Positions 17,412 through 61,982 of a stretch of 64,000 nucleotides of DNA are shown here, piece after piece. Within the stretch, counting starts at the first letter, position 1, and each line of letters opens with the position of its first letter. A program made the position numbers and the translations under genes. Source of the stretch: Pelosinus sp. UFO1 (GTDB lineage Bacteria > Bacillota > Negativicutes > DSM-13327); the NCBI RefSeq assembly GCF_000725345.1, contig NZ_CP008852.1, positions 920,001-984,000 of the forward strand. The letters run 5' to 3'. The notes under the pieces were generated by a model that saw only the letters and a program-made list of their open reading frames with translations, did not search any database and was not told where the DNA came from.

Positions 17412-17702
17412 ATGCTGAAAATAATACAATCTAGTCAAGCTGGCACAGTTGAGTCAAATGATATCTTAATTATTCTTAATCCTGCTGAAGCAGGCAGTGG
17501 AATTAAGATTGATTTGACAAGCCCGGTATTGCAAAAATATGGTCGCCAAATAAAGAATGTCATTCAGGAAGTTTTAAATGGACAAGGAATTGTAGATGCC
17601 GAGGTGTCAGCAAATGATCGGGGGGCATTGGATTGTACTGTTCGAGCTCGTATGATGACAGCAATTGATAGGGCACTACTCAAAGAGGAGGCAAAAGGAT
17701 GA
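17412..17702 (+). CDS. citD: Citrate lyase acyl-carrier (gamma) subunit
   Basis: A 96-residue acyl carrier protein. Ser15 in AGTVESNDI is the expected attachment site of the 2'-(5''-phosphoribosyl)-3'-dephospho-CoA group, and the DRGALDCTVRARM segment near residue 78 matches the family. It carries the acetyl group that is exchanged for citrate in the lyase cycle. It is the first gene of the operon, with a GGAGGTG ribosome site, and overlaps citE by four bases. The genes that make and attach the prosthetic group (citX, citG) and activate it (citC) are not in the window. Confidence 0.95.
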   Translation: MLKIIQSSQAGTVESNDILIILNPAEAGSGIKIDLTSPVLQKYGRQIKNVIQEVLNGQGIVDAEVSANDRGALDCTVRARMMTAIDRALLKEEAKG

Positions 17703-18586
17703 AACTACGCAGAACAATGATGTTTGTACCTGGCAATAATCCAGGCATGTTAATAAATGCTGGTATTTATGGCGCGGATACTATTATCTTTGATTTAGAA
17801 GATTCGGTAGCAATCAGTGAAAAGGATGCTGCTCGTCATTTGGTATATAACGCGATGAAAGCCATTAAATATCCTTGTGAAGTAGCAGTACGAATTAACC
17901 ATATTAGTACTCCTTTTGGCTATAAGGATTTAGAAGTTATTTTAGCAGTAAAACCTGACTTAATTCGCCTACCTAAGTCTGAGACAGCTGCAGATATACA
18001 AGAAATAGATGCTATCATTACTGCTGCAGAGATAAAACATGGATTTGTGCCTGGTAGTATAAAAATGATGGCCGCCATTGAGACGGCTAAAGGTATACGT
18101 AATGCTTTTGAAATTGCTACTGCAAGCCCACGTATGGTGGCGATTGCAATCGGTGGAGAAGACTTCTTAGCAGATTTACAAACTTCTCGGACAAAAGATG
18201 GTAAAGAGTTTTATTCGGCTAGAGGACAGTTGATTTTGGCGGCGCGAGAAGCTGGAATTCATGCCATTGATACGGTATTTGGTGATGTGAATAATGAGGA
18301 AGATTTTATTGCCGAAACTACTCGTATTAAGGAAATGGGATTTGACGGAAAATCTGTGGTTAATCCACGTCAAATTAATATTGCCCATCAAATCTTTATG
18401 CCTACTACGAAGGAAATCGATCATGCGGAAAGAGTGATTACAGCATATAAGGAGTCTTTGGCTCGCAAATCAGGTGTAGTGTCATTAAACGGTAAGATGA
18501 TAGATGTTCCAGTTGTAAAGAGGGCAGAAAGAACTCTTGCTTATGCGAATGCTGCTGGCAAGAACAACGGGAGGGTGAAATTGTGA
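17699..18586 (+). CDS. citE: Citrate lyase beta subunit (citryl-ACP lyase)
   Basis: A 295-residue HpcH/HpaI-type TIM barrel that splits citryl-ACP into acetyl-ACP and oxaloacetate. Typical segments are RRTMMFVPGNNPGM at the N terminus, IIFDLEDSVAISEKDAAR with metal-linked acids, and IAIGGEDFLADLQTSRT. It is full length and lies between citD and citF with four-base overlaps on both sides, so a 1:1:1 complex can be produced by coupled translation. Confidence 0.95.
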   Translation: MKLRRTMMFVPGNNPGMLINAGIYGADTIIFDLEDSVAISEKDAARHLVYNAMKAIKYPCEVAVRINHISTPFGYKDLEVILAVKPDLIRLPKSETAADIQEIDAIITAAEIKHGFVPGSIKMMAAIETAKGIRNAFEIATASPRMVAIAIGGEDFLADLQTSRTKDGKEFYSARGQLILAAREAGIHAIDTVFGDVNNEEDFIAETTRIKEMGFDGKSVVNPRQINIAHQIFMPTTKEIDHAERVITAYKESLARKSGVVSLNGKMIDVPVVKRAERTLAYANAAGKNNGRVKL

Positions 18587-20127
18587 TCAATGCAATCGGT
18601 AGAGAAATACCAGAAAACATAGCGGGAATAAAAAATATAAAACCCTATGGTGGTCCTTTTGAGTATGTACCGACAGGACGATTGACGGGTCCTAACATTA
18701 TTTTGAATAGACCTCGTTCGGAGAAAGTTCTCAAGTCAATTGAACAGGCGATTGATGCAACCGGCTTAAAAGATGGTATGACGATTTCCTTTCACCATCA
18801 TTTCCGTAATGGAGACTATGTTCTCAATATGGTGGTTGCTGCTATTGCCAAGAAAGGTATAAAAGGTTTAACGTTAGCTCCTAGTTCATTGAATAATATT
18901 AATGAAGAGATTATTCCCTATATTGAGCAAGGGGTTATTACTGCAGTTGAAACTAGTGGTGCTAGGGGAAAAATGGGCAAGCTTCTGACTAGTGGGAAAA
19001 TGGCAAAGACAACTATTATTCGTTCCCATGGTGGAAGGGCTAGAGCCATTGAATCCGGTGAACTTCGAATTGATGTGGCTTTTATTGGAGCACCAGCTTG
19101 CGATACCTATGGCAATATCAATGGTGTAGAAGGAAAATCAGCATGTGGTTCTCTTGGCTATGCTATGGTAGATGCGGCTTATGCGGATAAAGTTGTTGCC
19201 ATTACCGATCATTTAGTACCGTATCCTCTCTTTCCTGTTAGTATTCCTCAAACTCAGGTTGATTATATTGTGGAAGTGGAAGCGATTGGCGATCCCAAAG
19301 GCATTGCATCAGGTGCACTTAGGATTAGTAAAGACCCAAGGGAATTATTAATTGCTCAATATGCTACAACAGCTATCGAATATTCCGGATATTTTAAACA
19401 AGACTACTCCATTCAGTTGGGGAGTGGTGGAGCATCTTTGGCAGCAGCTCAATTTCTGAAAGCAAAGATGAAACAACAAGGTATTACGGCGAGTTTTGGC
19501 TTAGGCGGCGTAACAGCGCCTTTTATTGAAATGTTGGACGAAGGATTAATTAAGGCTATTTATGATGTACAGGATTTTGATATTCCATCCATACAATCGA
19601 TGAAGAAAAATGCGAACCATCAGGAAATGTCAGCCTCTTTTTATGCTAATCCACATAATCGAGGACCGATTGTTAATCAGCTTGATGTGGTTATTTTGAG
19701 TGCCACAGAAGTAGATGTAGATTTTAATGTCAACGTAATCACTGATTCAAATGGTGTAATTATGGGGGCTGTAGGCGGGCATCAGGATACGGCGGCAGGT
19801 GCTGCTTTATCAATTGTGGTAGCACCACTCTTACGTGGCCGTTTGCCGATGGTTATTGATCAGGTGCATACCGTTTGTACACCGGGAGAGACAGTGGATA
19901 TTATTGTTACTGAGCGGGGAGTGGCTGTAAATCCTCGGCGTAAAGACTTGCGAGATAATTTAAGAGAGGCGAATATTCCAGTAATGGATATTGAAGAGTT
20001 AAGAGACCTTGCCTATGAATTTGCTGGCAAGCCTGACCCTATTCTGGTAAGTGATGAAATTGCTGCTGTTGTCGAATATCGTGATGGCACATTGATTGAC
20101 GTTATTCGTAGACCTTTGCAACTATAA
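18583..20127 (+). CDS. citF: Citrate lyase alpha subunit (citrate:acetyl-ACP transferase)
   Basis: A 514-residue CoA-transferase-type subunit that swaps acetate for citrate on the CitD prosthetic group. Diagnostic blocks include TISFHHHFRNGDYVLN, the FIGAPACDTYGNINGVEGKSACG segment and IMGAVGGHQDTAAGA near the C terminus. It starts with GTG overlapping citE. With CitD and CitE it makes a complete citrate lyase giving acetate plus oxaloacetate from citrate, an anaerobic citrate fermentation step. Confidence 0.95.
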   Translation: MINAIGREIPENIAGIKNIKPYGGPFEYVPTGRLTGPNIILNRPRSEKVLKSIEQAIDATGLKDGMTISFHHHFRNGDYVLNMVVAAIAKKGIKGLTLAPSSLNNINEEIIPYIEQGVITAVETSGARGKMGKLLTSGKMAKTTIIRSHGGRARAIESGELRIDVAFIGAPACDTYGNINGVEGKSACGSLGYAMVDAAYADKVVAITDHLVPYPLFPVSIPQTQVDYIVEVEAIGDPKGIASGALRISKDPRELLIAQYATTAIEYSGYFKQDYSIQLGSGGASLAAAQFLKAKMKQQGITASFGLGGVTAPFIEMLDEGLIKAIYDVQDFDIPSIQSMKKNANHQEMSASFYANPHNRGPIVNQLDVVILSATEVDVDFNVNVITDSNGVIMGAVGGHQDTAAGAALSIVVAPLLRGRLPMVIDQVHTVCTPGETVDIIVTERGVAVNPRRKDLRDNLREANIPVMDIEELRDLAYEFAGKPDPILVSDEIAAVVEYRDGTLIDVIRRPLQL

Positions 20128-20164
20128 ATAGAGGATTGATTTGAAAAAAGGAGTGTAATATTCT

Positions 20165-22087
20165 ATGGGACAAAATTTATTTAAAAAGATTATAGCTGCT
20201 CATTTAATGTCAGGTACTATGACCGTAGGTAGTGAGGTGGGAATACGCGTCGACCAAACTCTTACCCAAGATGCTTTAGGTACTATGGCCTATCTGCAGT
20301 TTGAGGCGATGGATGTACCTGTAGTGAAAACGAAATCCGTATCTTATATTGATCATAATACATTGCAAGATGGTTTTGAAAATGCCGATGATCATCGATA
20401 TCTGCAAACAGTAGCAGATAAACACGGTATTAAATATTCTAAAGCTGGTAACGGCATTTGTCACCAAGTTCATTTAGAGCGTTTCAGTCGTCCAGGAGAT
20501 ACGCTAATCGGTTCTGATAGTCATACGCCTACCTGTGGTGCAGTCGGGATGAGTGCTATGGGTGTTGGCGGCATGGACGTTGCAGTCGCTATGGCGGGAG
20601 GCCCCTTTTATTTTGTGTATCCCCAAGTAGTTCGTGTGAATCTAGAAGGTAAATTACAACCATGGTGTGCGGCTAAGGATATTATATTAGAACTTTTAAA
20701 AATTCTTACAACCAAGGGTAATGTAGGAACCGTAATCGAGTATGGTGGTTCTGGTTTAGCTCATTTGACAGTGCCTGAACGGGCTACGATTACTAATATG
20801 GGTGCAGAATTAGGAGTCACTACTTCTTTATTCCCTAGTGATGAAATGACTCGGCAATTTTTCAAAGCTCAAGCGAGGGAGCAAGACTGGCAGGAGTTAA
20901 AGCCTGATGAAGATGCTGACTATGATAGGGTAATTAATTTAGATTTAGCTTCTATTGAACCTAATATTGCTTGTCCCCATTCTCCAGACAATGTGAAGAT
21001 GGTTCGCGAAGTTGCAGGACTTGAGGTCCAGCAGGTTATGGTTGGTAGTTGTACTAATTCTTCCTACCGCGATCTTATGATGGTAGCTGCCATGCTTAAA
21101 GGCAAGCAGGTTCATCCTAAAGTCAGTCTAGGTATTGCTCCAGGCAGTAAACAAGTATTAGCTATGATAGCAGAAAATGGAGCACTGAAGGATCTGGTTG
21201 CTGCTGGGGCACGTATATTAGAGTCCACCTGTGGTTTTTGTGTCGGTTGTGGTCAGGCACCTCAGACGAAAGGAGTGTCATTGCGTACCAATAATCGGAA
21301 TTTTGAAGGACGTAGCGGTACGAAGGATGGTCAAGTCTATCTGGTCAGTCCCGAAACGGCGGTGGCAGCGGCTCTAAGTGGAAAGGTTACTGATCCCCGA
21401 GAACTAGATATGGAATACCCTACTATTATTTTGCCAGAAGTATACGAAATTGATGATAGTATGATTCTTTTACCTTCAGAGGATCAATCTGTAGAGGTGT
21501 TTCGCGGTCCTAATATTGGCGAACCGCCGAAAAATACCCCAATGCCTGAAAAATTGACTGCTAAGGTTGCTATTAAAGTAGGGGATAAGATCACGACTGA
21601 TCATATTATGCCAGCAGGTGCGTATTTAAAATATCGGTCTAATGTTCCTAAATATTCGAGCTATGTTTTTTATCACATAGATCCTGAGTTTGCGCCTAAA
21701 TGTGCTACGAATAAGGCAGAAGGCTTAGCCTCTGTAATTGTTGCCGGTCTGAGTTATGGACAAGGGTCATCGCGGGAACATGCTGCTTTATGCCCAATGT
21801 ATTTAGGTGTTCGCGTGTTATTGGCTAAGAGTGTAGAGCGAATTCACGGGGCCAACTTAACGAATTTTGGTATTTTGCAACTTACTTTTGCTGACGATAC
21901 GGACTATGAACGCATTCAGGCTGGAGATGAATTGGCAGTTGATAACATGTACCAAGCGATAAAACAGGATATAGTGCTTGTGCGCAATGTAACGCAGGGA
22001 TATACCTTCGAAACAAAATGTAACCTGACACCAAGGCAAAGAGATATTGTGTTATGTGGTGGCTTGTTAAATTATACAGCAAAATAA
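20165..22087 (+). CDS. acn: Aconitate hydratase (640-residue bacterial type)
   Basis: Full-length aconitase with the large (LeuC-like) and small (LeuD-like) parts fused, at 640 residues like the shorter anaerobe enzymes. The [4Fe-4S] ligands are Cys296 (GSCTNSS) and Cys356/Cys359 (TCGFCVGC). The swivel domain has DKITTDHIMPAGAYLKY and YGQGSSREHAALCP. It interconverts citrate, cis-aconitate and isocitrate. Placed 37 bases after citF, it most simply feeds cis-aconitate or isocitrate into citrate for cleavage; isocitrate dehydrogenase is not present here. Confidence 0.95.
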   Translation: MGQNLFKKIIAAHLMSGTMTVGSEVGIRVDQTLTQDALGTMAYLQFEAMDVPVVKTKSVSYIDHNTLQDGFENADDHRYLQTVADKHGIKYSKAGNGICHQVHLERFSRPGDTLIGSDSHTPTCGAVGMSAMGVGGMDVAVAMAGGPFYFVYPQVVRVNLEGKLQPWCAAKDIILELLKILTTKGNVGTVIEYGGSGLAHLTVPERATITNMGAELGVTTSLFPSDEMTRQFFKAQAREQDWQELKPDEDADYDRVINLDLASIEPNIACPHSPDNVKMVREVAGLEVQQVMVGSCTNSSYRDLMMVAAMLKGKQVHPKVSLGIAPGSKQVLAMIAENGALKDLVAAGARILESTCGFCVGCGQAPQTKGVSLRTNNRNFEGRSGTKDGQVYLVSPETAVAAALSGKVTDPRELDMEYPTIILPEVYEIDDSMILLPSEDQSVEVFRGPNIGEPPKNTPMPEKLTAKVAIKVGDKITTDHIMPAGAYLKYRSNVPKYSSYVFYHIDPEFAPKCATNKAEGLASVIVAGLSYGQGSSREHAALCPMYLGVRVLLAKSVERIHGANLTNFGILQLTFADDTDYERIQAGDELAVDNMYQAIKQDIVLVRNVTQGYTFETKCNLTPRQRDIVLCGGLLNYTAK

Positions 22088-22123
22088 AAGATAGGTAATT
22101 TAAAAGATTGAGGAGATTTTTAC

Positions 22124-23488
22124 ATGGATATTTTTGCTGTTTTTAAGGGTATTATTCAAGCGGGACCGACGGTCTTACTTCCGGTTGTTATTTTTATATT
22201 TGCAATCGCCTTCAGATTAGAGTTAGGCAAAGCCATACAAAGTGCACTGACAGTTGGAGCTGCATTTGCAGGGTTGAAGTTAGTTGTTGAGTTCCTGGCA
22301 AAAAGCCTAGGACCGGCAACTAAAGAGATGGTTACACAATTAGGAGTTCACTTAAATGTCATTGATATGGGTTTTGGTACGGTAGCTGCAATTGGCTGGA
22401 GCTCTCCCATTGTTCCCTTTATGGTTTTTGCGATTATGGGAGTCAATATTGTGTTATTAGTGCTAAATAAAACGAACACATTAAGTGTCGACATTTGGAA
22501 TTATCATCATGCTCTCACCATCGGCAGTCTGGTTTATCTTGAAACTAACAACGTTGCGGTTTCTGTCGCGGCAGCTGCCTGCACAGGATTGTTTGTGTAC
22601 AAAATGGCTGACTGGGCTGCACCACTGGTAAGTAATTACTACAAAATACCAGGTGTCACAATACCCGCTATCCATGCGTTGATGAACTTGCCGATTGCTG
22701 CTCCTATCAACGTATTATTTGATAAGATACCGGGGTTTAACAAGATCGACTTTAACATGGAAACTCTCCGCAAATACTTCGGCGTTTTTGGGCAGCCACT
22801 TGTGATTGGTTTAATTCTTGGAACTAGTATTGGACTTTTAGCTGGCTATGCTCCTTATAAGGCTTTTGGACTTGGCATAAACATGGCAGCAGCCATGATG
22901 TTACTGCCCAAAATGACGCATATGTTCGTCGACGGTTTAAAGCCTATTTCGGAGCAAGCCAGAAAGATTACCGATAATAAATTTAAGGGAAGAAGGATAC
23001 TGATTGGTTTAGATCCCTCTGTTCTATTGGGAGATGCCGCCGTAATTACTACAGCGTTATTGATGGTGCCTATACTCATCGGACTCGCTATAATTATTCC
23101 CGGAAACAAGTTGTTACCCTTTGCGGACTTGGCTGCATTACCGTATAAGGTGGCAATGGTTGTTGCCTTGACAAACGGGAACATATTCCGAAGTATCATT
23201 TTATGTACAATTGCTTTTATTCCGTATTTTTTCTTTGGAACGTGGACGGCTCCAATTATTACTGCAGCGGCAACATCTGTGGGTTTAAGTGAAAGCATTC
23301 CGGCTGGGATGATGATTAGTTCTTTCACAGGTACTACTATGCCAATAAGCTTTATGCTGTATAAAGTGTTCACAGGCAATGTAATGGTAACCGTGCCAAT
23401 ATTGTTAGCAGTCTTTTTAGCTATATGGATTTTTATGGAGAAAAAAATTATGCCGAAAATAGAAGTTAAAGATAATATCTCAGGTTAA
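22124..23488 (+). CDS. Orphan GatC-type PTS IIC membrane protein
   Basis: A 454-residue polytopic membrane protein that aligns along its length with galactitol PTS IIC (GatC): an N-terminal GPTVLLPVVIFIFAI segment, VDIWNYHHALTIGSLVYL, YKMADWAAP, IPGFNKIDF, KYFGVFGQP and the LIGLDPSVLLGDAAVI motif are all recognisable. GatC normally needs GatA and GatB for phosphate transfer, and no IIA, IIB, HPr or EI gene is in this operon. It lies between aconitase and a PrpF-like isomerase, so it may move an organic acid or work with an unlinked IIB; the substrate is unknown. Confidence 0.85.
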   Translation: MDIFAVFKGIIQAGPTVLLPVVIFIFAIAFRLELGKAIQSALTVGAAFAGLKLVVEFLAKSLGPATKEMVTQLGVHLNVIDMGFGTVAAIGWSSPIVPFMVFAIMGVNIVLLVLNKTNTLSVDIWNYHHALTIGSLVYLETNNVAVSVAAAACTGLFVYKMADWAAPLVSNYYKIPGVTIPAIHALMNLPIAAPINVLFDKIPGFNKIDFNMETLRKYFGVFGQPLVIGLILGTSIGLLAGYAPYKAFGLGINMAAAMMLLPKMTHMFVDGLKPISEQARKITDNKFKGRRILIGLDPSVLLGDAAVITTALLMVPILIGLAIIIPGNKLLPFADLAALPYKVAMVVALTNGNIFRSIILCTIAFIPYFFFGTWTAPIITAAATSVGLSESIPAGMMISSFTGTTMPISFMLYKVFTGNVMVTVPILLAVFLAIWIFMEKKIMPKIEVKDNISG

Positions 23489-23564
23489 AGTCATCATCAG
23501 CTGTTTGGCTTTATTATTAGGCGACATAAGCGGCGATTACTAAAAGCAAAAGGAGGAGAGGAAT

Positions 23565-24713
23565 ATGGGGGAGTATTTAAAGATTCCTGCAGTACTTATG
23601 CGGGGTGGAACAAGTAAAGGTGTATATTTGATGCAAAGTGATCTTCCGGCAGATAGCGGGCTCCGAGATCAAGTTATCCTTGCTATTTATGGTAGTCCAG
23701 ATATACGTCAAATTAATGGAGTGGGTGGTGCCGATCCTCTTACCAGTAAAGTAGCTATTATAGCACCATCAACTAGGGAAAATGTTGATGTGGATTATAC
23801 CTTTGGTTATGTGGGAATTAAAGATGCAGTTGTGGATTATGAAGGTAACTGTGGCAATATGTCCTCTGGCGTAGGTCCTTTTGCAATTCAGCAGGGACTG
23901 GTGGCGATAACAGAGCCTATTACTAAGGTACGGATTTATAATACAAACACCAAGAAAATAATTGAAGCTGAGATTCCGGTAAAAGATGGTGAAGTGGTTA
24001 CTGAAGGCGATTATGCCATTGACGGTGTACCGGGCACCGGTGCGAAAATAGTTCTAAATTTTTTAAATTCCGGTGGCTCTAAAACTGGTAAGCTGTTGCC
24101 TACTGGTAATGTAGTCGATGAAATTGTCCTCAAGGACGGTAAAAAAGTGCGGGTGAGTTTGGTTGATGCAGCCAATCCATCAGTTTTTATCAAAGCTACA
24201 GATATTGGTCTTACAGGGATCGAATTACCCAAAGACACAGAAGCAAATCCTGAGATATTGGAAATTATGGAGGATATCCGGACAACTGCAGCTGTTATGA
24301 TGGGCTTGGCAACTAGTAAAGATGCAGTAGGCCCTGCTGTTCCTAAAGTAGCTTTTGTTTCCGCACCTAAAGACTATTTCACCATCAATGGCGTCGGAGT
24401 AAAGGCCAAGGATATTGATTTGGTGGCTAGGACCAAGGCATTGGCAGTTATGCATAAGGCTTATGCTGTTACAGGTGGCATCTGTGTATCTACAGCCGCC
24501 TTGATTGAGGGGACAGTAGTCAACGAAATCGTTGGTGAACAGGCTAAAGTTAGGGGTACTGTTCGCCTAGGTCACCCTTCTGGCATCCTGGATTTTGAGA
24601 TTAATCTGGAAAAAAACGGGGAAAAGTGGCAGCTTGATAAGGCTGGAGTAAGCCGTACGGCAAGACCAATTATGGATGGTCACGTATACGTTTCTCGCAG
24701 AGTTTTTGGCTAA
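23565..24713 (+). CDS. PrpF-family isomerase (aconitate/methylaconitate/methylitaconate type)
   Basis: A 382-residue protein of the PrpF fold (two diaminopimelate-epimerase-like halves). The signature MRGGTSKGVYL opens the protein; NCGNMSSGVGPFAIQ holds the catalytic Cys region, with a second Lys/Cys-containing active-site element in the C-terminal half. Family members shift double bonds in aconitate analogues (PrpF, 3-methylitaconate isomerase, 4-oxalomesaconate tautomerase). Beside aconitase and citrate lyase, conversion of trans-aconitate to cis-aconitate is a reasonable inference. No prpBCD genes are present. Confidence 0.85.
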   Translation: MGEYLKIPAVLMRGGTSKGVYLMQSDLPADSGLRDQVILAIYGSPDIRQINGVGGADPLTSKVAIIAPSTRENVDVDYTFGYVGIKDAVVDYEGNCGNMSSGVGPFAIQQGLVAITEPITKVRIYNTNTKKIIEAEIPVKDGEVVTEGDYAIDGVPGTGAKIVLNFLNSGGSKTGKLLPTGNVVDEIVLKDGKKVRVSLVDAANPSVFIKATDIGLTGIELPKDTEANPEILEIMEDIRTTAAVMMGLATSKDAVGPAVPKVAFVSAPKDYFTINGVGVKAKDIDLVARTKALAVMHKAYAVTGGICVSTAALIEGTVVNEIVGEQAKVRGTVRLGHPSGILDFEINLEKNGEKWQLDKAGVSRTARPIMDGHVYVSRRVFG

Positions 24714-24721
24714 AGATTAAT

Positions 24722-24743
24722 ATGGTATCCCATATTGATACCA
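24722..24743. repeat. Small inverted repeat
   Basis: ATGGTATC and GATACCAT are perfect 8-bp arms separated by a 6- to 7-nt loop, just after the PrpF-like gene. No T-run follows, so it may stabilise the message end or mildly attenuate expression of the downstream transporter. Confidence 0.4.
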
Positions 24744-24796
24744 TGATATGAGTTATTACTTGGTCAAAAATATAGAAAGTTCGGGAGGGTGAAAAA

Positions 24797-26257
24797 ATGT
24801 CAGAAGCTACAAATAAGGTGTCTTATAAGTCGATACACATTTTGATTGGGTTGTTGATTATGACTGCCATTGCTGTTATGCCGCAGATAGCAGGGCTTTC
24901 ATCAGCTGGACAGAAGATGATTGGAGTACTGGCTTTTTCCGTATATATCTGGATTACAGAAGCTATGCCTTATCCTATAAGTGCTATTGCCATCTGTTTT
25001 TCGATGATTATGTTTCTTGGCTTATCGCCTGCAACTGGTACTACAGGTAAGCTTCTGGGTACAACGCAAGCTATTCCTTTGGCCATGTCAGGTTTTATAA
25101 ATTCCGGATGGGTGCTGGTGGCTGCAGGAATGTTTCTAGCAGAAGCTGTCCGTTTTACCGGTTTAGATCGGCGTATTGCACTAAATATATTAAGAATTGT
25201 AGGAACTGAGCCTAAAAGAATCATCGGGGGAATTATGATTGCCGCATATATACTGGCTTTTATTATTCCTTCTATTGCAGCACGGGCAGCCGCTTTAATT
25301 CCTATATCCATGGGACTCATTACAGCTTTTGGTGTTGATCTGAGAAGTGTTTTTGCTAGACAGCTCATGTTGGTTACAGGAATAATAGCACCGATTACGG
25401 CACTAATGGTTCTAACCGCCGGAGCTCCCAATCCTTATACAGTTGGTCTTCTTAACAGTCAATTAAATCATACTGTTACTTGGAGCCAATGGCTACTTTA
25501 TGCTGGACCTTTTTCCATTGCATTAGGGGTTATTGCGTACATTTTAGTTATTACGATGAACAAGTTTGAACCACTTCCTGGGGGACCTGCCCTAGTAGAA
25601 AAATATATGGCAGAGATCGGACCTATGAGCTCTAAAGAAAAACGCATTGGTAGTATATTTATCATCACTATCATTCTATGGGGATCAGAACACTGGCATC
25701 ATATTGATGCTAATACGATTACTGTATTTGCAACTTTGCTTCTCTTCTTAACCAGGGTAGCTACCTGGAAACAAATGAGCGACAGAGTACAATGGGGTAC
25801 TTTGGTATTATTCGGTATTGGGATATCCATTGGTGAAGTGTTGCTAAAGACTGGTGCAGCGACCTGGGGAGCGAAAGCAACTTTGGGTGCCTTGGGGCTT
25901 CAAACCATGAGTGCGCCAATGATGTTGGCAGTGATTGCAGTGCCTCTCATTGTGATTCGTTTAGCATTTTCAAGTATCGTAGCATTAGGAGCTCTTGTAG
26001 TACCAACGATATTGGGACTGCTAGTTAGCTTTAATGATCCGAACATTTCCGTATGGAGTATTACCTTAATATCCTCATTTCTTGTATACTTTTCCTTCAT
26101 TCTTCCCGTAAATACTCCTGCTACATTATTGACATATGCTACAGACACTTATGAACTAAAAGATATGCTTAAGTTAGGCGTTCCTTTAACTATTCTAGGC
26201 TTATTAGTGTACGTTTTATTTACTCACACTTATTGGCACTGGATAGGCTTGCTTTAA
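24797..26257 (+). CDS. DASS (SLC13) family anion transporter
   Basis: A 486-residue membrane protein with about 12 helices of the divalent anion:Na+ symporter family. Seen are the paired hairpin regions SGWVLVAAGMFLAEA and the second-half LVLFGIGISIGEVLLKTGAATW, and the SFILPVNTPATLLTYATDTY segment near the C terminus, matching the family's substrate- and Na+-binding SNT-type motifs. Position after citDEF-acn-PrpF points to a di- or tricarboxylate substrate. The ribosome site CGGGAGGGTG is strong. Confidence 0.85.
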   Translation: MSEATNKVSYKSIHILIGLLIMTAIAVMPQIAGLSSAGQKMIGVLAFSVYIWITEAMPYPISAIAICFSMIMFLGLSPATGTTGKLLGTTQAIPLAMSGFINSGWVLVAAGMFLAEAVRFTGLDRRIALNILRIVGTEPKRIIGGIMIAAYILAFIIPSIAARAAALIPISMGLITAFGVDLRSVFARQLMLVTGIIAPITALMVLTAGAPNPYTVGLLNSQLNHTVTWSQWLLYAGPFSIALGVIAYILVITMNKFEPLPGGPALVEKYMAEIGPMSSKEKRIGSIFIITIILWGSEHWHHIDANTITVFATLLLFLTRVATWKQMSDRVQWGTLVLFGIGISIGEVLLKTGAATWGAKATLGALGLQTMSAPMMLAVIAVPLIVIRLAFSSIVALGALVVPTILGLLVSFNDPNISVWSITLISSFLVYFSFILPVNTPATLLTYATDTYELKDMLKLGVPLTILGLLVYVLFTHTYWHWIGLL

Positions 26258-55300: not shown

Positions 55301-56188
55301 TTAGATAAGAGTTTGAAGATAAGAGAGAAAGGTTTGGGTTGCAATCGATAAATCTTTTTTCTTATTAAATATTATGCCGATGGTGCGAGACGGAATGGGA
55401 GGGGAAACGGGAATTTCTACAAGGTTTCCATTGGCCAGATCTTGTTCAATAAAATTTTTAATTACAACAGTTACACCTAAGCCGATTTTGGCAAATTCAA
55501 TAAGGAAGTCCATAGTATTAATCTCTATTTCAGGTTTAATAAATATATTGTTTTCAATAAAAAATTGATCAATATATTGGCGTGTAATATTATCTGATTC
55601 AAGTAGCATAAAGATGGCTTTTGTGAAGATATCGTTAGGCGCTACTACTTGAATGGTTTTTAAATACTCTTTTTCAGCAACAAAGATGTCTTGAATAGTA
55701 GCCAATTTGATAAAAGTATAGGAATCTAGATTAAAAGGGCGGCTGACAATGCCAAAGTCAATCATTCCTTGGTCAATGTGCTGTAACGTATCAAAAGTGG
55801 TTTTATTAATAATTTTTATTTTAATTTCAGGATATTGATTCATAAAGGGTTTAAGGTGGGGGAGAAGAAAATGTTTGCATAACGTCGTACTAACCCCAAT
55901 GGTAATTACACCTTGTTTTTTGCTCTTAAGTTCCGTTAGGGTATTTTCACCTTCCGTAATGAGATGGAGTGCTTTTTCTATATATTCATAGAAAAGTTTC
56001 CCTTCTGTCGTTAGAGTAACTCCCTTTGAGCTGCGGGAAAATAATTTAATATCAAGAGTTGCCTCTAGTTTTTTTATGGACTTACTTACTGCCGGTTGAC
56101 TGATATACAATGCCGCTGCTGCATGGGAAATATTCTTATAGTATGCAACAGTATGGAAAATTTTATATAGTTCTAAATCTTTACTCAT
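55301..56188 (-). CDS. LysR-family regulator of the tandem hydro-lyase operon
   Basis: A 295-residue LysR regulator (CysL/YwfK-like overall shape). Its helix-turn-helix reads NISHAAAALYISQPAVSKSIKKLEATL and the remainder is the effector domain. The start ATG has GAGAGGT upstream. It is divergent from the LeuD-type gene with about 100 bases between starts, where TTATATT-A-AATATAA (56203-56217) forms a small palindrome suitable as its binding site. Effector unknown; a branched or methylated dicarboxylate is likely from the targets. Confidence 0.9.
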   Translation of the reverse strand: MSKDLELYKIFHTVAYYKNISHAAAALYISQPAVSKSIKKLEATLDIKLFSRSSKGVTLTTEGKLFYEYIEKALHLITEGENTLTELKSKKQGVITIGVSTTLCKHFLLPHLKPFMNQYPEIKIKIINKTTFDTLQHIDQGMIDFGIVSRPFNLDSYTFIKLATIQDIFVAEKEYLKTIQVVAPNDIFTKAIFMLLESDNITRQYIDQFFIENNIFIKPEIEINTMDFLIEFAKIGLGVTVVIKNFIEQDLANGNLVEIPVSPPIPSRTIGIIFNKKKDLSIATQTFLSYLQTLI

Positions 56189-56202
56189 ACTATAACCTCT
56201 CG

Positions 56203-56217
56203 TTATATTAAATATAA
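56203..56217. promoter_or_regulatory. Short palindrome between LysR and leuD-type gene
   Basis: TTATATT and AATATAA flank a central A. The position in the divergent intergenic region suggests a LysR binding site; the AT-rich composition makes chance occurrence possible. Confidence 0.4.
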
Positions 56218-56288: not shown

Positions 56289-56771
56289 ATGATTAAAGGT
56301 AAGGTATGGAAATTCGGTAATGATGTAGATACGGATCAAATCATTCCGTCCCAATATTTGCTACTGCCCACCGTAGAGGAAATGAAGCAGTATACCTTTG
56401 AACCTTTGGACAAAGACTTTGCTTCTACTATATGTACAGGTGATGTTATTGTAGGAGGAGAAAATTTTGGCTCTGGGTCTTCCAGGGAACAGGCCCCATT
56501 AGTACTAAAAGCCTTAGGCGTGAGTGCAGTGGTTGCAAAATCTTTTGCAAGAATTTTCTTTAGAAATGCGATTAATATTGGATTGCCAGTAATTATCTGT
56601 AAAGAAGTTTATGATGATGTACAAAACCAGGATACCCTCGAGATCGATGTGCAGAGAGGCAGTATCCGAAGTGTCAAATCAGGTGAAACTTTTACATCTA
56701 CCACATTGCCAGCTCACGTTATGAACATATTAGAAGCAGGCGGTTTGATCGGATTTTTAAATCAGAAATAA
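56289..56771 (+). CDS. LeuD-type hydro-lyase small subunit, pair 1
   Basis: A 160-residue swivel-domain subunit of the aconitase superfamily. It starts KGKVWKFGNDVDTDQIIPSQYL and has [21 protein letters not shown], the conserved substrate-binding loop. It pairs with a LeuC-like large subunit immediately downstream. There is no leuA or leuB in the operon, so leucine biosynthesis is not obvious; the substrate may be a related malate such as citramalate, dimethylmalate or homocitrate-like acid. ATG 56289 gives the family N terminus; ATG 56280 abuts the GAGAG site. Confidence 0.88.
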   Translation: MIKGKVWKFGNDVDTDQIIPSQYLLLPTVEEMKQYTFEPLDKDFASTICTGDVIVGGENFGSGSSREQAPLVLKALGVSAVVAKSFARIFFRNAINIGLPVIICKEVYDDVQNQDTLEIDVQRGSIRSVKSGETFTSTTLPAHVMNILEAGGLIGFLNQK

Positions 56772-56784
56772 AGGGGGTATGGCA

Positions 56785-58041
56785 ATGGGAATGACGATAG
56801 GAGAGAAAATATTGGCTCGGGCAAGTGGTAAGGATGTTGTGAAACCTGGGGAAATCATCACGGCAAAAGTAGATCTATGTATGAGTAATGATGGTACAAC
56901 CCATTTAAATATTGATATATTTGAAAATCAGCTGAAGGCAGAAAAAGTCTATAATCCGGAAAAGGTAGTTTTTATTGTAGATCATAATGTGCCTTCAGAA
57001 AGTGCCAAAACGGCTGAGGTACACAAAAAAATGCGAATATTTGCGCAAAAACATCAAATTCCATTTTACGAAGGAACAGGCGTGTGTCATCAGATCATGA
57101 TTGAAGATTTTGTTGTACCAGGACAGTTGATCATTGCGGCAGATTCTCATACCTGTTCTTATGGTGGGCTAGGAGCCTTTGGCACAGGGGTGGGTTGTAC
57201 GGATTTTACTTCTGTAATGAATACAGGAGAAATATGGCTGATGGTGCCGGAGACATTAAAGTTTATTATTGAAGGTAAGTTTAAACCAGGTGTATATGCA
57301 CGGGATCTGATCTTAAAAATTATTGGTGACATAGGGGCAAATGGAGCTAACTACAAGATTATGGAGTTTGGCGGACCTGCCGTGAAAGCTTTTACCATTG
57401 ATGACAGAGTTGTGCTTTGTAATATGGCGGTGGAGGCAGGGGCAAAAAGTGGCCTTGTTGCGCCAGATGAAACTACTATTGAATATGTTACCTCCAAAGG
57501 GCGTCAGGATATGCATCTATTTACTAGTGATGAGGATGCAGTGTATGAGAAGATATATTACTATAACTTAGATGAATTAGAACCGATGATTGCTATACCT
57601 CACTGTGTAGATGATGTCGTTCCCATAAAAGAGATTTCCGAAGTAAAGATTAATCAGGGATTTATTGGTTCCTGCAATAATGGAAGAATCGAAGAACTTC
57701 GTGCTGCCGCAAAAATTTTGCAGGGAAATAAGATTGATCCTTATGTGAAGTTACTGATTTCCCCTGCTTCAAAAGCAGTATACTTACAGGCTTTATCAGA
57801 AGGGCTCATTGATATTTTCGTCGAAAGCGGAGCCATGGTTCTGAATCCTAATTGTAGTGTTTGCTGGGGAAGTTGTCAGGGGGTAATTGGTGAAGGGGAA
57901 GTCTTATTATCTACAGGAACACGAAACTTTAAAGGTAGAGCAGGCCATCCTAATTCCAGTATTTACTTGGCTTCAGCAGCTACGGTTGCTGCTTCAGCTC
58001 TTACAGGAAAAATAACAGATCCCAGGGGGGCGGTACAATGA
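56785..58041 (+). CDS. LeuC-type hydro-lyase large subunit, pair 1
   Basis: A 418-residue [4Fe-4S] dehydratase subunit. Cluster cysteines lie in GSCNNGRIEEL and in NPNCSVCWGSCQG. The active-site histidines and DSHTCSYGGLGAFGTGVG are present. GSCNNG and the NCSVC pair differ slightly from LeuC consensus (GSCTNG, PSCGPC). ATG 56785 is seven bases after AAGGGGG. It overlaps the next small subunit by four bases (ATGA). Complexed with the preceding LeuD-like protein it would isomerise or dehydrate a hydroxy-acid. Confidence 0.9.
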   Translation: MGMTIGEKILARASGKDVVKPGEIITAKVDLCMSNDGTTHLNIDIFENQLKAEKVYNPEKVVFIVDHNVPSESAKTAEVHKKMRIFAQKHQIPFYEGTGVCHQIMIEDFVVPGQLIIAADSHTCSYGGLGAFGTGVGCTDFTSVMNTGEIWLMVPETLKFIIEGKFKPGVYARDLILKIIGDIGANGANYKIMEFGGPAVKAFTIDDRVVLCNMAVEAGAKSGLVAPDETTIEYVTSKGRQDMHLFTSDEDAVYEKIYYYNLDELEPMIAIPHCVDDVVPIKEISEVKINQGFIGSCNNGRIEELRAAAKILQGNKIDPYVKLLISPASKAVYLQALSEGLIDIFVESGAMVLNPNCSVCWGSCQGVIGEGEVLLSTGTRNFKGRAGHPNSSIYLASAATVAASALTGKITDPRGAVQ

Positions 58042-58532
58042 ATAGAAAATTTACAGGAAGAGTTTGGAAACTAGGGGATGATATTGATACGGATATTATT
58101 ATCCCTACCCAGTTTCTTGCCTTGAAATCAGTAGAAGATATGAAGAGATATGCATTTTATCCTCTAAGGCCCAGGTTGCCTGAATTGATTAACCCAGGGG
58201 ACATTATTGTAGCAGGGAAAAACTTTGGTTGCGGTTCTTCGAGGGAACAAGCACCAGAAATTATCGCAGCATTGAAAGTTGGCTGTATTATTGCTAAGTC
58301 TTATGCTAGAATATTTTATCGCAATGCGTTTAATAATGGCTTGCTGCTTCTTGAGAATGAAGAACTTTATGACTGTTGCGGGGAAGGCGATGAAGTTTCT
58401 GTAAATCTTGAAAGTAGTAAAGTATCCCTCGGGAAAAAAGCGTTTAAGGTATCTTCCATACCCAGGGATTTACTGAAGATGGTGGAAGCAGGCGGACTAG
58501 TTCCTTTTATGAGAGAACGGAACGGCAAGTAG
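58038..58532 (+). CDS. LeuD-type hydro-lyase small subunit, pair 2
   Basis: A 164-residue subunit with [22 protein letters not shown] at the N terminus and [22 protein letters not shown]. It has GCGSSREQ in place of GSGSSREQ of pair 1. The start overlaps the first large subunit gene. It is clearly a paralogue of the 56289 product, about half identical by eye, indicating an internal duplication of the operon. Confidence 0.88.
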
Positions 58533-58552
58533 TGTAAAAAGGAGGTAGGATT

Positions 58553-59806
58553 ATGGGATATACCCTAGCAGAAAAAATCATCATGAAAAATACTGGGAAA
58601 AAGTCGGTTACTCCAGGCGAACTGCTCAATGTTAATGTGGATCGAGTCATGGTCCACGACATCTTCGCCCCATTTGTAGTTGAAAAATTTAAAGAAATGG
58701 GTTTTGAGAAGGTCTGGAATCCCGATAAGATTGTTTTTGTATATGATCATCTTGTTCCCACTAGTTTTATTGAAGATTTTCGCCACCATAAAATAGGGGA
58801 TGACTTTGCTAGAGAACAAAATATTAAGGCTGTTCATCGTTCCGATGGTGTTTGTCACCAATTGATGCCAGAGTTACGATATGTTGTTCCTGGTCAAGTG
58901 GTTTTTGGTACAGATTCTCATACGACTACCTATGGGGCAATTGGTGCTTTTTCTACAGGGATTGGTTATACGGAAATGGCGGCAATTTTTGGTACGGGAG
59001 AGTTATGGATAAAGGTTCCGCCAACCCTAAAGTTTAACATAAATGGTGATCTACCAAAGGGCGTATATGCCAAAGATATCATCTTAAGAATTCTTGGGGA
59101 TATTGGAGCTGACGGAGCTACTTATAAAGCCATGGAGTTTAGTGGCTCCACGATTGATGGTTTAAGTATATCTTCAAGAATGACACTTTCCAACATGGCA
59201 GTGGAAGCGGGAGCTAAGGTCGGAGTGATTGCTCCTGACGAAAAAACTTTTGCATTTAGTGGCGTAGATGGCAAGGAGTATCAGGATTTAAAAAGCGACC
59301 ATGATGCAAAGTATGAAAAGATTTTCACCTATGATGCATCCTCATTACAACCTGTTGTTGCCTGCCCATCAAATGTAGATAATATTAGTGATGTGAAAGC
59401 GCTGTATGGAACAAAAATAGATCAAGGTTTTATTGGGTCCTGTACCAACGGTAGGCTTGAAGATTTGGAGATCGCAGCCGAAATACTAAAAGGACGTAAA
59501 ATTGCACCTTTTACAAGGCTTATTGTGACCCCTGCTAGCCGCAGTATCTACGCAGAAGCTGCAAAAAAAGGTATTATCGGAATTTTAGTGGAAGCGGGAG
59601 CCATTATGAATCCACCTTCCTGTGGCTTATGCTGTGGCAGGAGCGGTGGTATTGTGTCAGATGGGGAAAAAGTCATTGCAACGAATAACCGAAACTTCTT
59701 AGGCAGGATGGGCAGTCCTAAGTCAGAAATCTTTCTTGCCTCCCCTGCAACTGTTGCTGCTGCTGTATTAGAAGGTAAAATTGTCGATCCAAGAAAGTAT
59801 TTATAA
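58553..59806 (+). CDS. LeuC-type hydro-lyase large subunit, pair 2
   Basis: A 417-residue [4Fe-4S] hydro-lyase large subunit. The cluster cysteines appear in GSCTNGRLEDL and PPSCGLCCGRSGG, nearer to consensus than in pair 1. FGTDSHTTTYGAIGAFSTGIGYTEMA is the conserved active-site block. AAAGGAGG provides a strong start. It is the last gene of a four-gene LysR-controlled operon of two complete dehydratases. Confidence 0.9.
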   Translation: MGYTLAEKIIMKNTGKKSVTPGELLNVNVDRVMVHDIFAPFVVEKFKEMGFEKVWNPDKIVFVYDHLVPTSFIEDFRHHKIGDDFAREQNIKAVHRSDGVCHQLMPELRYVVPGQVVFGTDSHTTTYGAIGAFSTGIGYTEMAAIFGTGELWIKVPPTLKFNINGDLPKGVYAKDIILRILGDIGADGATYKAMEFSGSTIDGLSISSRMTLSNMAVEAGAKVGVIAPDEKTFAFSGVDGKEYQDLKSDHDAKYEKIFTYDASSLQPVVACPSNVDNISDVKALYGTKIDQGFIGSCTNGRLEDLEIAAEILKGRKIAPFTRLIVTPASRSIYAEAAKKGIIGILVEAGAIMNPPSCGLCCGRSGGIVSDGEKVIATNNRNFLGRMGSPKSEIFLASPATVAAAVLEGKIVDPRKYL

Positions 59807-61088: not shown

Positions 61089-61982
61089 ATGAAAAAAATA
61101 GCAATTATGATTGTATCCCTCTTATTATTTTGTCCATCCTTTCTATGGGCTATGTCCGAAGTCTCACAAAATGAGCCAATCATTAGAATTGACAGCAATC
61201 ATGAATTACAGCTTCCTAAAAATTTTAGAACAACAAGTAATCTAGAGAATTTTAAGGATAACATACCTTCGATCATGGGGCTTATAGAGCTGCATGAATC
61301 AGGGAGCTCTCAATTTTCAGAAAAAGAATTTACTCAAGTTTTGGGTAAAATATCTGGGAAAATTATTGTTGTTGACTTACGGCAAGAATCTCATGGATTT
61401 TTAGATGGCACAGCTGTAAGCTGGTATGGGAAACGAAATTGGGCAAATGTTGGTAAAAGTCTAGGGGAAATTGAAAAAGATGAACAAGAACGATTGCGAT
61501 CATCACTAACTACTCCCATTAACATAGCACCTTTTACTGCAAACGAGGGAAAAATCAACAATGCATTTACGGAAGCTCAACTTGTTTCTTCTTATGGAGT
61601 ACAATATTTTCGTATTCCTGTTACGGATCATATGCCGCCTAGTAATGAAAATGTAGATCAATTTATTCAATTTTATAAGAGCTTACCTCAGGATGTTTGG
61701 CTTCATTTTCACTGTCATGCTGGCCATGGTCGAACGACTACTTTTATGGCGATGTATGATATTTTGCGAAATGGAAAAAAGGTTAGCTTTGAAGATATCA
61801 TGATGCGCCAAGCTTTATTAGGTAATATGGATCTTCGGGAAATACCATCATCTAAAAAAGCATGGGAACGGAAACTTTATGAAGATCGAGCGCTCTTTAT
61901 TAAGCAGTTTTATGATTATGTAACTCAATCAAATGATGATCTCCCCGTAATGTGGTCTGAGTGGATTGGGCAGCATCAATAA
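61089..61982 (+). CDS. Exported protein-tyrosine-phosphatase-like phytase / inositol phosphatase
   Basis: A 297-residue protein with a signal peptide (about 1-20, core IAIMIVSLLLFCPSFLWA). The catalytic P-loop is HCHAGHGRTT, where Cys attacks the phosphate and Arg binds it; VVDLRQESHGFLDGTAVSWYG and the general-acid loop RIPVTDHMPPS also match the Selenomonas ruminantium PTP-like phytases. It should hydrolyse inositol polyphosphates (or phosphotyrosine) outside the cytoplasm. It precedes an MFS transporter by 45 bases in the same direction. Confidence 0.88.
   Translation: MKKIAIMIVSLLLFCPSFLWAMSEVSQNEPIIRIDSNHELQLPKNFRTTSNLENFKDNIPSIMGLIELHESGSSQFSEKEFTQVLGKISGKIIVVDLRQESHGFLDGTAVSWYGKRNWANVGKSLGEIEKDEQERLRSSLTTPINIAPFTANEGKINNAFTEAQLVSSYGVQYFRIPVTDHMPPSNENVDQFIQFYKSLPQDVWLHFHCHAGHGRTTTFMAMYDILRNGKKVSFEDIMMRQALLGNMDLREIPSSKKAWERKLYEDRALFIKQFYDYVTQSNDDLPVMWSEWIGQHQ

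Follow-up and report, generated by a model that had tools for sequence, protein, structure and literature searches.

Two tandem LeuD-LeuC pairs at one locus

We analysed a stretch of the chromosome of Pelosinus sp. UFO1 (the window; 64,000 nucleotides, positions 920,001 to 984,000 of NZ_CP008852.1, from a genome of 5.1 Mb) that carries four tightly packed genes on the forward strand, leuD1-leuC1-leuD2-leuC2, referred to here as the quartet (Table 1). All four open reading frames (ORFs) are intact, and an NCBIfam scan places all four proteins in the LeuC and LeuD families of large and small hydro-lyase subunits. An earlier note, made from the sequence alone, had described two tandem LeuD-LeuC pairs with differing cluster motifs, and both descriptions hold, as LeuC1 carries GSCNNG...NCSVCWG and LeuC2 carries GSCTNG...SCGLCCG. 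Its picture of one LysR operon without leuA or leuB needs more adjustment: the LysR gene is adjacent but divergent, on the reverse strand, and lies outside the operon, and leuA and leuB, though missing from this locus, are both encoded elsewhere in the genome.

Table 1. Positions of the quartet genes and of associated features in the window.
Feature	Position	Strand	Remarks
leuD1, small subunit	56280 or 56289 (alternative ATG starts)..56771	+	ORF calling, NCBIfam; specificity loop SQYLLL
leuC1, large subunit	56779..58041	+	altered cluster surroundings: GSCNNG (T359N), TGTRNF (N446T), CSVCWG
leuD2, small subunit	58038..58532	+	loop TQFLAL; start overlaps leuC1 stop (ATGA)
leuC2, large subunit	58553..59806	+	canonical catalytic residues (GSCTNG, NNRNF) plus CGLCCG
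LysR-family regulator gene	55301..56188	-	divergent; kept next to the quartet in Pelosinus and Sporomusa
ATAAC-N5-GTTAT inverted repeat	56192..56206	.	candidate LysR (T-N11-A type) site in the 91-base divergent spacer

Judged by their sequences, the two pairs are non-equivalent. The catalytic residues of the large subunit were chosen from work on aconitase, and the aconitase numbering of their positions in LeuC was checked. The resulting residue table holds 53 of 54 LeuC1 and 51 of 53 LeuC2 sequences (truncated ones excluded), four LeuC' proteins and three of five LeuC2 relatives (both described below) and, with over-long ORFs excluded, 10 of 11 members of the LeuC3 clade and 13 of 14 other proteins. 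The cluster cysteines and the listed catalytic positions are intact in every aligned LeuC1 (53/53) and LeuC2 (51/51). The pairs differ at positions 359 and 446, which we take to touch the cluster or the substrate, and at position 425: LeuC1 carries T359N in 52 of 53 rows and N446T and a tryptophan at 425 in all 53, whereas LeuC2 has T359, N446 and C425 throughout (51/51). T359 and N446 are likewise retained by the LeuC proteins of leu operons (25/25); position 446 is serine in three of ten LeuC3 rows, so N446 is not universal. The small-subunit loops are hydrophobic in both pairs, usually LLL in LeuD1 and LAL in LeuD2.

With just 47% identity between LeuC1 and LeuC2, a recent tandem duplication was rejected. 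In the small-subunit tree LeuD1 and LeuD2 are sisters (support 97); for the large subunits, a tree without LeuC' neither establishes a sister relationship nor rejects it (p 0.15). An old duplication of the whole LeuD-LeuC pair is thus possible.

The isopropylmalate step in genomes with a quartet

The genes for the flanking steps of leucine synthesis lie at C1:4.51 Mb of the same genome, in an operon ilvN-ilvC-leuA-leuB-ilvB that lacks leuCD, and its LeuA and LeuB both score above the curated equivalog cut-offs. The search for leuABCD elsewhere, which the earlier note had proposed, therefore recovered leuA and leuB together but leuCD only as a third pair, at C1:189330. In two sister-genus genomes (G001 and G002) and a further member of the class (G024) the operon reads leuA-leuC-leuD-leuB. 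Across the eight genomes of the genus, which include Pelosinus fermentans JBW45 (G003; NZ_CP010978.1) and P. propionicus DSM 13327 (G006; NZ_FOTS01000039.1), the ilv-leu operon always keeps leuB and always lacks leuCD, leuA is kept in six, and the quartet is found in all eight in the same gene order. Half of them (G003, G004, G007 and G009, with G007 89% and G009 85% complete) have no LeuC-size member of PF00330 other than the quartet large subunits; of these genomes all but G009 have leuA, and in G003, G004 and G007 the quartet is the only LeuCD alongside leuA and leuB. Some Pelosinus genomes also encode a second protein resembling 2-isopropylmalate synthase (IPMS).

A similar picture emerges outside the genus. 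The PF00330 search covered 30 quartet genomes, two of them Pelosinus, which leaves 28 from outside the genus. No LeuC-size member besides the quartet was found in 19 of the 28. For 17 of these every match is listed, while G524 and G529 each leave a single piece unlisted, which we take as the second half of LeuC2; seven of the 19 (G513, G518, G520, G528, G530, G531 and G533) are strain-named and bear no label as metagenome-assembled genomes (MAGs). Each of the 19 also encodes a protein matching LeuB at 50-55% identity, as well as an HMGL match of LeuA size. Twenty of 20 LeuA proteins match IPMS models, 18 of their genomes being among the 19 (the Blautia luti LeuA, L317, is absent from the LeuA alignment, A3). 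At E<=1e-30, the threshold for listed matches, LeuA is the only HMGL match in 16 of the 19, so that no citramalate or homocitrate synthase is visible there.

Since no LeuC-size proteins other than those of the quartet were found to accompany LeuA and LeuB in those 19 genomes, we assign the quartet to the isopropylmalate step and believe that it most likely supplies isopropylmalate isomerase (IPMI). LeuA would form 2-isopropylmalate, the quartet would isomerise this via isopropylmaleate to 3-isopropylmalate, and LeuB would oxidise the product; in Pelosinus the quartet would stand in for the canonical leuCD missing between leuA and leuB. This role is in our judgement likely, with catalysis and substrate deduced from gene content and residues. 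The suggestion in the earlier note that the pairs serve other acids rather than leucine synthesis is probably wrong in view of the leuCD-less operon of the genus and of the 19 genomes.

Several observations weigh against this assignment. The operon of G006 and G009 lacks leuA, with leuB 18 bases from ilvC (L164 and L168), yet both genomes keep leuB and the quartet; no other HMGL protein of IPMS size was found in either, and their HMGL proteins of 335-336 residues (C59 and C186) adjoin an apparent acetaldehyde dehydrogenase. The third LeuCD pair of the UFO1 genome (L017) is intact. A further LeuC is present in seven of the 28 genomes (G506-G510, G512 and G526); it adjoins LeuB in four (two Sporomusa, G509 and G510), where the quartet may have another function, and not in G512 and G508. 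Two more are unclear: two pieces of G521 are unlisted, as is one of G527, which also has an AcnA-like fragment at the edge of a contig. Many of the 28 are MAGs of unstated completeness, in which absences may be gaps, and the quartet copy in G254 (77% for LeuC1) lies on a short MAG contig where contamination is possible. Finally, the quartet falls below the NCBIfam equivalog cut-offs for IPMI (TIGR02083/TIGR02084): LeuC1 scores 476.2 and LeuC2 477.4 against 610.65, and LeuD1 188.9 and LeuD2 138.5 against 245.85. With the same models the sister-genus leu-operon LeuC scores 702.9 and LeuD 242.6, itself just under the cut-off.

The third pair, LeuC3-LeuD3, could in principle be the IPMI of its own genome, leaving the quartet some other task. 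It is an intact LeuCD pair whose clade keeps the three cluster cysteines (10/10), and its presence means that the quartet does not hold the only LeuCD homologues in UFO1, as it does in other genomes. Against this, inspection by eye places it beside a DASS-type transporter, a sigma-54 regulator and LutABC-like genes; members of its clade read GSCTGG rather than GSCTNG; and three genomes that retain leuA and leuB (G003, G004 and G007) lack it. We regard this alternative as very improbable and the third pair as probably a catabolic hydro-lyase.

A second alternative is that the quartet itself is a catabolic or specialised-biosynthesis module outside leucine synthesis, acting for example on dimethylmalate or another substituted malate. 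The nearest relatives of LeuC2 sit in clusters that look catabolic (scanned for G006:C121), some quartets stand beside other metabolic genes (L199, L200 and L222), and the two leuA-less Pelosinus genomes retain the quartet. On the other side are the 19 genomes with no other LeuC-size protein, the Pelosinus leu operon without leuCD, and the lack of any transporter or degradation gene widely common to the 50 quartet loci described below. We consider this reading improbable. DmdAB (2,3-dimethylmalate dehydratase) is linked to dimethylmalate lyase and nicotinate-fermentation genes; no such ORFs were recognised at 55-64 kb of the window, the part of the genome searched for them.

Solved structures also speak for IPMI: each of the four subunits finds its best relative among those of the Methanocaldococcus jannaschii IPMI/citramalate isomerase MJ0499/MJ1277 (4nqy, 4kp1 and 3vba), ahead of homoaconitase. 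The two systems share the two-subunit layout, the cluster cysteines and a GSSRE motif, but M. jannaschii has one pair where the quartet has two, and MJ0499 has T, N and M where LeuC1 has N359, T446 and W425. Where the quartet small subunits have LLL or LAL in the loop, the IPMI of M. jannaschii has LVY and the homoaconitase of that species LRT; this loop has a role in substrate choice according to PMC7308503. The LeuCD of Bacillota leu operons (TIGR02083/TIGR02084) belong to the same family and, by inference, serve the same pathway step, but they form a separate clade and have the order C-D between leuA and leuB, and the quartet proteins fall below both equivalog cut-offs. Among the substrates proposed in the earlier note, homoaconitate and citramalate are disfavoured. 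A homoaconitase (HacAB) would be expected to show the arginine of MJ1271 (PYLRT), which SQYLLL and TQFLAL lack, and the scores are low, with 452 and 457 for the large subunits against a HacA_Meth cut-off of 550, and 174-178 for LeuD1 and 135-136 for LeuD2 against 230 with HacB models. For a citramalate isomerase the objections are the hydrophobic loops and the finding that, at E<=1e-30, 16 of the 19 genomes with no other LeuC have LeuA as their sole HMGL match.

Because of the NCBIfam cut-offs, the quartet proteins receive only generic aconitase or isopropylmalate dehydratase names, and pathway tools could draw wrong conclusions about leucine synthesis in genera of the gut, Anaerostipes and Blautia among them.

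Other LeuC arrangements were seen along the way. A further LeuC in G512 and in two Sporomusa genomes (L332, L333 and L334; 403-406 residues, canonical residues) lies beside a PrpF-like protein, in the two Sporomusa also beside a LeuD, and marks another probable catabolic cluster. Elsewhere in the Bacillota (L156, L158 and L169) there recurs an operon of amidotransferase-like genes (gatA/gatB by eye), HMGL, LeuC, LeuD and an isocitrate/isopropylmalate-dehydrogenase-like gene, the LeuC of which forms a separate clade and the loop of which is (Y/H)KFKT.

Joint inheritance of the pairs and a degenerate LeuC1 relative

A scan of named genomes with the LeuC1 alignment kept 80 of 95 loci, 50 of them with a LeuC1 of at least 58%. 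In 49 of these 50 all four genes are present on one strand in the order leuD1-leuC1-leuD2-leuC2; the fiftieth (L238) stops at a contig edge after leuC1. The contig ends within leuC2 in L215 and L218, and in L215 the third gene gives a slightly better match to LeuD1 than to LeuD2. Neither pair was found alone in any of the 49 testable loci of this LeuC1-based scan. The records come from Pelosinus, Sporomusa, Desulfosporosinus, Anaerostipes, Blautia, other Lachnospiraceae and a few other Bacillota. An order held in all eight genus genomes and in 49 of 50 loci is not due to chance. With LeuC and LeuD set aside, the most widespread protein clusters reach 11 of the 50 loci; there are two of these, a mixed set of LysR proteins and an apparent antisense ORF, and the unit is thus the four genes. 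No account of the quartet was found in the open-access literature searched.

A search of the class (120 genomes, bits >440) returned as nearest relatives of LeuC2 the eight Pelosinus LeuC2 proteins and six others, all in tandem arrangements. The six (in G006, G053, G079, G097, G115 and G117) stand downstream of a LeuC1-like gene, here called LeuC', with a small subunit and another ORF in between in G079. The clusters that hold these trios look catabolic: that of G006 (G006:C121) includes a pyruvate:ferredoxin-oxidoreductase-like protein, a phosphotransacylase, an acetokinase-family kinase, a KdgT permease and an RraA-like protein, and the others were read by eye. When all six LeuC' and all six LeuC2 relatives were compared (save for D100/H101 of the L085 LeuC'), H147, D165, E262, R447 and R452 were replaced in every LeuC' and intact in every LeuC2 relative. 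Three of the six LeuC' have lost all three cluster cysteines. W425, otherwise confined to LeuC1 among the groups in the residue table, is kept by three LeuC'.

In a tree of 75 chosen large-subunit rows, among them 18 LeuC1 and 17 LeuC2, LeuC1 and LeuC' fall together on one side of a branch with support 100, and a topology joining LeuC' with LeuC2 is rejected (p 0.001), although the exact place of LeuC' is uncertain owing to long branches. Given that the LeuC2 relatives nest within LeuC2 (97) and that the two small subunits of trios included in the small-subunit tree cluster with LeuD2 (100), the trio looks like a quartet minus LeuD1. Between G053 and G117 LeuC' is 64% identical and its partner 91.5%, so LeuC' is diverging faster. 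A decaying pseudogene is nevertheless disfavoured, as the ORFs are open, dN/dS for LeuC' between the two genomes is ~0.14 (a rough value, with dS saturated at 2.1), and one LeuC' is predicted to adopt the LeuC fold, with a predicted local distance difference test score of 84.9 and a template-modelling score of 0.89 to 4kp2.

We believe that LeuC1 may help LeuC2, chiefly because a catalytically degenerate relative of LeuC1 has been kept. Together, the strict co-inheritance of four genes in all 49 testable loci and the position of LeuC' upstream of intact LeuC2 relatives point to cooperation; if the IPMI role is right, we would put such cooperation at slightly below an even chance. The two LeuD-LeuC pairs would then be old paralogues held together by joint action. 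LeuC2-LeuD2 would bear the canonical active site, and LeuC1-LeuD1, with all listed catalytic residues in an altered cluster environment, would either form a mixed complex with it or carry one half-reaction, dehydration or rehydration. To this extent the earlier note's idea of sequential steps survives: clade-fixed residues, co-inheritance and the degenerate LeuC' all speak for non-equivalent pairs that may act in sequence or together. More specifically, and tentatively, the quartet may form a heteromeric IPMI with non-equivalent large and small subunits, in which LeuC1 is an obligate partner of LeuC2; in the trio LeuD1 would have gone and LeuC' would be a non-catalytic pseudoenzyme that still supports LeuC2. 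To our knowledge, no other enzyme of the aconitase family has a catalytically dead LeuC partner.

The main alternative is that one pair alone, most likely LeuC2-LeuD2, is the IPMI, and the other an independent hydro-lyase for another alkylmalate that merely travels with it. The canonical residues of LeuC2, the fixed deviations of LeuC1 and the differing loops of LeuD1 and LeuD2 would all fit such a division. Less easily accommodated are the failure to find either pair alone in the LeuC1-based scan, the lack of a visible second source of alkylmalate where LeuA is the sole HMGL match, and the absence of any widely shared neighbour beyond the four genes. We think this division of roles unlikely, and favour cooperating pairs over it.

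There are partial precedents for cooperation. According to PMC3556520, the isomerisation of homocitrate in fungi and Thermus is split between aconitase and homoaconitase, each performing one half-reaction. This offers a model for a divided quartet, but as described there the substrate is a tricarboxylate and the two are separate enzymes with other roles, whereas a split in the quartet is only our inference. Arabidopsis IPMI combines one large with three small subunits, the paralogues having different recognition loops; it multiplies the small subunit only, while the quartet multiplies both in one cassette (PMC7308503). If the quartet pairs do cooperate, LeuC1, the cluster-bearing degenerate LeuC' and the cluster-less LeuC' would form a natural series for an iron-sulphur hydro-lyase subunit becoming a pseudoenzyme, and the quartet would provide a bacterial test of whether two enzymes can divide dehydration and rehydration.

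The divergent regulator and neighbouring genes

LysR orthologues at 75-98% adjoin the quartet in Pelosinus and Sporomusa; at the remaining quartet loci LysR matches are at most 40%, or there are none. We think it probable that this divergent LysR controls the quartet in these two genera. The ATAAC-N5-GTTAT repeat in the spacer is a candidate binding site: read by eye, its arms are identical in eight of nine spacers (seven Pelosinus and two Sporomusa), with one change in S. ovata. A scripted palindrome filter picked a different, overlapping AT-rich repeat in the same spacers. Scans for promoters (14 versus 11.4 in shuffles) and terminators (1 versus 3.0) gave no signal.

Some quartets have neighbours of their own. 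In the leuA-less G006 and G009 a pyridoxal phosphate enzyme of Cys/Met metabolism (412 residues) lies directly behind leuC2 (L179 and L180; Pfam on L179 only). A Sua5/YrdC-like gene lies close to the quartets of L199, L200 and L222 (Pfam for L200 only). L200 and, by eye, L222 also have MFS and metallo-beta-lactamase genes nearby; in L222 fatty-acid-synthesis-like genes follow the quartet and the quartet proteins are diverged.

Elsewhere in the window, positions 61089-61982 encode a PTP-like/phytase-like protein whose NCBIfam XopH match is below the cut-off (194.5 bits versus 500) and which has an orthologue at the same place in one genus genome (G008). Positions 17699-26257 hold a cluster citE-citF-acnA (640 residues)-EIIC-GAT-prpF-transporter, of which citE-citF-acnA-prpF is seen again in P. 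fermentans JBW45 (L186).

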